Of a DNA stretch of 64,000 nucleotides, positions 46,286 through 46,472 are shown in pieces. Positions within the stretch are counted from its first letter, which is position 1, and each line of letters starts with the position of its first letter. The DNA lies in assembly GCA_016215025.1 (NCBI GenBank), contig JACRMI010000110.1, positions 1-64,000 of the forward strand. The letters run 5' to 3'. The stretch comes from Chloroflexota bacterium (GTDB lineage Bacteria; Chloroflexota; Anaerolineae; UBA4142). The translations under genes were made by a program, and so were the position numbers. The notes beneath the pieces were generated by a model. It was given only the letters and a program-made list of their open reading frames with translations, was not told where the DNA came from and made no database searches.

Positions 46286-46472
46286 CTCATCTTCCAGATT
46301 TCGTTTCTGTCGGAGTTGGCACCTTATCAGTAATCAGTAATCAGTGAACAGTAATCAGTGAACAGTAATCAGATGATCTGACGACTGTTGACTGTTAACT
46401 GTTGACCGTTAACTGGCTACTGAGAGGTTGTCGAGGTTTCATAGGGCCGTTCCCTCCACCTCTCTGGATGAG
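46286..46472 (-). promoter_or_regulatory. SAM-I (S-box) riboswitch upstream of metY-metX-metW, with an enlarged P4 region
   Basis: minus strand CTCATCCAGAGAGGTGGAGGGAACGGCCCTATGAAACCTCGACAACC...GGTGCCAACTCCGACAGAAACGAAATCTGGAAGATGAG matches the S-box consensus core. Confidence 0.92.

Follow-up and report, generated by a model that had tools for sequence, protein, structure and literature searches.

A SAM-I riboswitch ahead of metY-metX in an Anaerolineae genome, with a P3 arm lengthened by an inverted array of heptad words

The locus described here raises the question of what becomes of a riboswitch when one of its arms is filled with a long run of short repeated words. It lies on the minus strand of a Chloroflexota contig, of which a stretch of 64 000 nucleotides (the window) was analysed, and all locus features described below are on that strand. 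The original prediction, made from the letters of the DNA, was of a SAM-I riboswitch with an intact core in which arm P4 appears enlarged by an inverted word array at a site that may tolerate such an extension.

The SAM-I aptamer, its lengthened arm and its setting

Only one Rfam match in the window reaches its gathering threshold, and this is a full-length match to the SAM-I (S-box) family RF00162 at 46474-46284 (68.1 bits against a gathering score of 44.4 bits, E-value 9.4e-14, model positions 1-108 of 108 in cmscan). The Infernal search that had been suggested as a check thus gave a strong match, and the predicted S-box core is indeed present and intact. The P1 5′ strand CTCATC (46467-46472) and a P2 arm with the GGA/TGAA kink-turn segments (46433-46465) were placed by sequence and the Rfam alignment. 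The Rfam consensus structure then gives the complete P3 arm (46318-46432), in which the array is enclosed by the base GACAACC/GGTGCC, and a P4 arm of ordinary size and without array, a short CAGA..TCTG hairpin at approximately 46293-46310; the P1 3′ strand GATGAG (46286-46291; sequence and folding) is overlapped by a possible antiterminator. According to the Rfam alignment the four-way junction P1-P2-P3-P4 can form. The minimum free energy (MFE) structure from RNAfold contains P2, P3 and part of P1; P4 is absent from it and present in the model alignment. Read by eye, the P2 loop AACGG is able to pair with TCCG in J3/4 as a candidate pseudoknot, and the P2-loop CGG and J3/4 TCCG letters occur both here and in the relatives compared.

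The array is a 102-nt insert of heptad words in P3 (46425-46324; TRF, periodicity and folding), located where it had been predicted, between CAACC, which ends at 46426, and GGTGCC, which starts at 46323. Its 5′ arm (46376-46422) consists of five to six words of the form CAGTNNN (CAGTAGC CAGTTAA CGGTCAA CAGTTAA CAGTCAA CAGTCGT), and the complementary 3′ arm (46326-46375) reads ACTG TTC ACTG ATT ACTG TTC ACTG ATT ACTG ATT ACTG. A chance repeat is ruled out by the period-7/14 arrays that TRF reports at 46383-46415 and 46326-46372, by a period-7 z-score of 8.7 against shuffles of the insert, and by the dominance of period 7 in the genome sample described below. The two halves are inverted, as proposed, and pair end to end in folding, the insert having a folding z-score of −6.4 against dinucleotide shuffles. 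Both the MFE and the centroid structure of the aptamer prolong P3 into a single long imperfect helix (z −5.1 against dinucleotide shuffles; z −6.3 for a longer leader), so that the array extends a helix and does not disrupt one. The long imperfect helix of the original prediction is therefore there, but it is P3 and not P4 that is extended. Nothing other than the label in that prediction speaks for an enlarged P4, which we regard as scarcely credible, since the Rfam consensus structure places the insert in the hairpin following P2, which is P3, and a normal, intact P4 lies 3′ of it. The array, its inversion and its position in P3 are thus plain observations.

The elements follow one another on the minus strand in the order promoter-like site, aptamer, terminator, metY and metX. 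The promoter-like site (46502-46530) has the form TTGACA-17-TAAATT with a TG before the second hexamer, and is a match to consensus only (10 of 12 positions). An intrinsic terminator hairpin with a T tail (46236-46260; terminator prediction and folding) provides the putative expression platform. The genes encode O-acetylhomoserine sulfhydrylase (metY, 44726-46027; TIGR01326, 672.7 bits, cut-off 495.1) and homoserine O-acetyltransferase (metX, 43486-44631; NF001209, 526.4 bits, cut-off 331), both assigned with NCBIfam models, and the named relatives of MetY are mostly from Anaerolineae and Chloroflexota MAGs. If a folding penalty is put on the terminator, GAAGA from the 3′ region of P1 is predicted to pair with UCUUC of the terminator 5′ arm; this is as expected of a terminator/antiterminator platform, in which a candidate antiterminator could possibly compete with the P1 3′ strand. 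We note that GTCACNN heptads are present at 46049-46074, directly between the terminator and the Shine-Dalgarno sequence and ATG of metY, and that these resemble the TAACTGA repeats of Beggiatoaceae, which are reported to lie just upstream of start codons.

In its core, its helix order from P1 to P4, its kink-turn segments, its putative terminator platform and the methionine gene downstream, the locus is like other members of the SAM-I/S-box family (RF00162), although its P3 is some 80-90 nt longer (many relatives have 12-25 nt between the anchors) and is built of word repeats. The metY aptamer score of 68 bits is below that of most relatives, many of which reach 80-98 bits, and the aptamer of one relative (L055) is cut off inside an array; the array might accordingly be thought to have destroyed the riboswitch and left a relic. 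We consider this very improbable, because the core, the kink-turn segments, the candidate pseudoknot letters, the promoter-like site, the terminator and the gene order are all intact here, and aptamer cores are approximately 80 % identical across the family while the P3 inserts differ.

Recurrence of word arrays in riboswitch arms

The genome to which the locus belongs is a 7.7-Mb MAG (96 % complete, 7.7 % contamination) with one further SAM-I riboswitch, located ahead of mtnA (TIGR00512), and its P3 also contains a word array, of other composition (GTCAGTA.. / ..CGACTGA). SAM-I riboswitches were found in 59 of 61 genomes of relatives (this one included), and in its own family a comparison with shuffles gives a period of 7 or 8 at z > 4 for 20 of the 24 P3 arms. 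Different words are used within the family, among them CAGTNNN, TTRGARR, GTGACNN and 8-nt units such as TAGTCNNN. In a second family of the same order all six readable mtnA leaders (G014-G018 and G020) carry an array, while seven sister SAM-I leaders are without one and have a P3 of 25-27 nt; the gene downstream of L059, the one of these seven that was tested, is threonine synthase. Other families of this class have array-bearing P3 arms as well (G038, G040, G041, G044, G051, G047 and G177). No array was seen in long SAM-I sequences sampled from the other classes of the phylum, a small sample picked by length among score-ranked matches. Two long examples from within the class (L300 and L303) do have arrays, and a long P3 arm is thus not in general an array.

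A one-off insertion is ruled out by locus L001 and by the arrays of the relatives, and the array is not tied to one gene, being borne by metY, mtnA and other leaders. The proposed comparison with orthologous metY leaders gave a divided answer, in that arrays recur among the relatives but metY leaders differ in whether they have one. Two genomes each have a pair of SAM-I P3 arrays that are unusually alike (L042/L043 in G006, 86 %; L050/L051 in G011, 79 %), whereas orthologous arrays reach 75 % at most; it looks as though one site had been copied to the other. At L055:510-690 a SAM-I aptamer lacks its 3′ half, and its 5′ half continues into an extended (GATTAGA)n..(TCTCCAA)n array, which reflects decay, rearrangement at the repeat or misassembly. 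Most of the genomes are MAGs, and repeats are places prone to misassembly; an artefact is nevertheless unlikely for the pattern as a whole, because it recurs over many assemblies.

Arrays are not confined to SAM-I riboswitches. Most cobalamin riboswitches (RF00174) of the family, including the one in the same genome, have period-7/8 arrays inside the match (L257:1501-1716 in this genome, and also L246, L248, L250, L252, L256 and L266), and these sit in the arm flanked by GCAACUGU and the B12-box AGCCAGGA. This recurrence in the second SAM-I riboswitch of the genome, in most SAM-I riboswitches of the family and in its cobalamin riboswitches had been missed by the original prediction, and so had the array's place in a class of word hairpins spread over the genome. 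The same genomes gave no arrays in their TPP riboswitches or in their matches to RNase P RNA, so an array general to all structured RNAs is ruled out and it is particular peripheral arms that are affected. RNase P RNAs of the family (L268-L277), which contain no word array, are longer and score approximately 100-116 bits against RF00010, compared with 325 bits for L267 from another family of the class.

Within the riboswitches the preference for P3 is pronounced. Among the 35 leaders of the two families of this order, arrays occupy P3 in 23, P4/P1 in one and the downstream segment in two, and neither P2 nor the upstream segment in any. With a stricter cut for calling arrays, 4.7 % of intergenic tiles of 90 nt pass, compared with 19 of the own family's 24 P3 arms; the binomial p of 2e-21 is indicative only, since the tiles are mutually dependent and the arms are related by descent. 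The bias towards P3 and away from P4 and P2 is strong enough that something more than tolerance may be at work. On the mtnA gene tree few changes of array state are needed, and in the branch that holds most of both families all 17 leaders have an array, the words having changed while the array was kept. On the metY gene tree, at least six changes are required. By these counts the array is old and stable at mtnA, and comes and goes at metY.

Complementarity, predicted folding and a genome-wide class

The arms of an array fit each other better than they fit those of other loci. The pairing energy of 5′ and 3′ arms from the same locus is −0.859 kcal/nt, against −0.535 kcal/nt when arms are swapped between loci, and none of 10 000 permutations reaches the value of the own arms; for mtnA orthologues alone the values are −0.878 and −0.483 kcal/nt. 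The words therefore turn over while complementarity is kept. Base covariation in register was tried and is weak, the linker letters pairing at 0.73 in register and 0.67 one unit off, an excess that is no evidence, since the register was chosen by the fold, and the arm-swap comparison was used in its place. The helix is thus conserved at the level of words and not base by base.

In 31 aptamers with an array, modelled as secondary structures free of the pseudoknot and of SAM, the set of core pairs was taken from a construct in which a GAAA loop replaces the insert. The mean core-pair probability is 0.90 with GAAA and 0.89 with the native insert, and falls to 0.65 with a dinucleotide-shuffled insert (native versus shuffled, p 2e-9); arrays made non-inverted, one arm being a copy of the other, give 0.59 and 0.46. 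One native insert, that of L102, does no better than its shuffles. In silico, then, the insert folds on itself and the core pairs as it does with a short loop, in agreement with the earlier proposal of a tolerant site. In established structures the distal end of SAM-I P3 points away from the ligand pocket, and with this and the folding test in mind we infer that SAM binding would be unaffected by the array.

The vocabulary of the P3 array is that of words spread throughout the genome. Array density was estimated from a 415-kb sample, in which sites number about one per 10 kb and period 7 is the strongest of periods 4-15 (35 regions at 20/28 matches, with 10 for period 14 and nine for period 8); pattern counts were taken from the whole genome. 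Four successive CAGTNNN words occur 332 times, and the reversed pattern 16 times (overlapping matches on both strands). The polarity of the hairpins is fixed, CAGT..ACTG occurring 171 times and ACTG..CAGT never in this genome, and 1278 times and twice respectively in the family (pattern matches, not sites). Whole-genome counts in G000 and relatives give a fixed order for TTRGA..TCYAA and TAGT..ACTA hairpins also. One genome of the order-mate family (G016) has many ACTGAGGACTGAG hairpins of the opposite order, with ACTG first, which apparently belong to another word family (GAGGACT). Within the window itself, an octad array, GACTACNN, with approximately 18 units and a 48-nt super-repeat, lies at 29641-29858 and is preceded by an inverted TAGTC arm. 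Further inverted word arrays are present at 31189-31279, 44642-44727, 62095-62180 and 63859-63963, with the vocabularies AAATGAC/GTCATTT, GTGATNC/ATCACG, CAGTGGA and ATGACAA.

Between predicted frames in five genomes, an inverted partner was found at 48 of 62 array sites (approximately 77 %) and at 11 of 150 random sites, counts that are approximate because genes were called crudely, as longest frames. Since inversion is the usual form of the element, it is by itself no proof of selection in the riboswitch, and that of the P3 array can be explained without selection there.

Dispersed copies of fixed polarity suggest that the arrays may be mobile palindromes of the REP or MITE kind, inserting into the loops of riboswitches; genes for Y1 (HUH) transposases are present in the genome, and the two genomes with unusually similar SAM-I arms would also fit. 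We nevertheless find this possibility somewhat doubtful. The dispersed sites are not copies of one consensus element, as REP and MITE sequences are, but have words in common only, with linkers, unit number and centres varying from site to site, and a single locus is more simply explained by local slippage together with copying of one arm to give the other.

Inert extension or selected part

The interpretation that we prefer, with a probability of about 0.75, is that metY-metX are under the control of an ordinary SAM-I switch which acts through transcription termination, and in which P3 is lengthened by a word hairpin of the genome-wide class as an inert, self-folding extension. The units of this class would be heptads or octads with a fixed core of 4-5 nt and two or three variable letters, the second half of each hairpin being made of the complementary words, and P3 would have been lengthened by one such copy. 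P3 is then likely to be a permissive site, at which arrays arise or land and are retained solely in self-complementary form, and the array would not be a second sensor. Put more generally, a genome-wide repeat has repeatedly been built into riboswitches without breaking their predicted fold.

Because the array is stable at mtnA and P3 is so strongly preferred, there is reason to take a use seriously. The array could be a selected part that tunes the switch, insulating the nascent aptamer, delaying the terminator decision, or serving as a protein-binding site or as a substrate of RNase III. The very large share of the family's P3 arms that carry arrays, the retention of arrays in the 17 grouped mtnA leaders of two families despite changes of word, the complementarity preserved through word turnover and the similar behaviour of cobalamin riboswitches are all points in its favour. 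We think it unlikely all the same, since the fold is generic to such hairpins genome-wide, the metY leaders have gained or lost the array repeatedly, and the sister leaders of the order-mate family manage without it; the repeated loss and these array-free leaders argue that the array is not necessary. A broader form of the idea, that word-array helices are an interchangeable selected module of Anaerolineae, with 7- and 8-nt word families fitted into outer arms of both riboswitch classes, SAM-I and cobalamin, and complementarity selected for insulation or timing or for a dedicated binding protein, seems to us no more probable.

One of the closest parallels to the lengthened P3 is in the tRNA-Leu(UAA) group I intron of Nostoc and Calothrix, the P6b stem of which is made of degenerate heptads, TDNGATT or NNTGAGT, with one word class having repeatedly been replaced by the other while the stem stayed similar (PMC4476775). 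Here too degenerate 7-nt words in complementary arms form a peripheral stem of a functional RNA, although the phylum and the RNA are different, and against the two word classes there we find several, together with 8-nt units and two classes of riboswitch. The words also differ, being CAGTNNN/NNNACTG at this locus and TTRGARR, TAGTCNNN and others in relatives, so that the P3 arrays work like the P6b heptad stems but are not of the same family. Short tandemly repeated repetitive (STRR) sequences have been described in cyanobacterial RNase P RNA, to judge from a title (Vioque 1997, doi 10.1093/nar/25.17.3471, cited in PMC4748335); as far as that title goes, the likeness is in short tandem repeats inside a structured-RNA gene, and the difference is that in these Chloroflexota it is riboswitches that bear arrays and RNase P RNA matches that are without them. 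TAACTGA heptad repeats are intergenic in Beggiatoaceae, Cyanobacteria and Bacteroidetes, and are direct, the genome mainly examined there having 169 sets of them and a single indirect repeat; riboswitches and Chloroflexi are unmentioned in that paper (PMC4679880). They share with the arrays described here an intergenic location and similar letters, TTAACTG being complementary to the CAGTTAA of this P3, but the arrays here are mostly inverted. In the open-licence literature, which is weak evidence of absence, we found no report of heptad arrays in riboswitches or in Chloroflexota.

These observations link a little-explained feature of cyanobacteria, the building of RNA stems from heptads, with riboswitches of two classes in an unrelated phylum. 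One practical consequence is that riboswitch searches can miss members with long inserts. Dozens of riboswitches share a core and differ in the words that fill one particular arm, and with their array-free sisters they amount to a large natural experiment on the uptake of repeats by structured RNAs. Whether heptads of this kind are tolerated or put to use is a long-standing question, which can now be tested on an RNA whose read-out, SAM-dependent termination, is simple.
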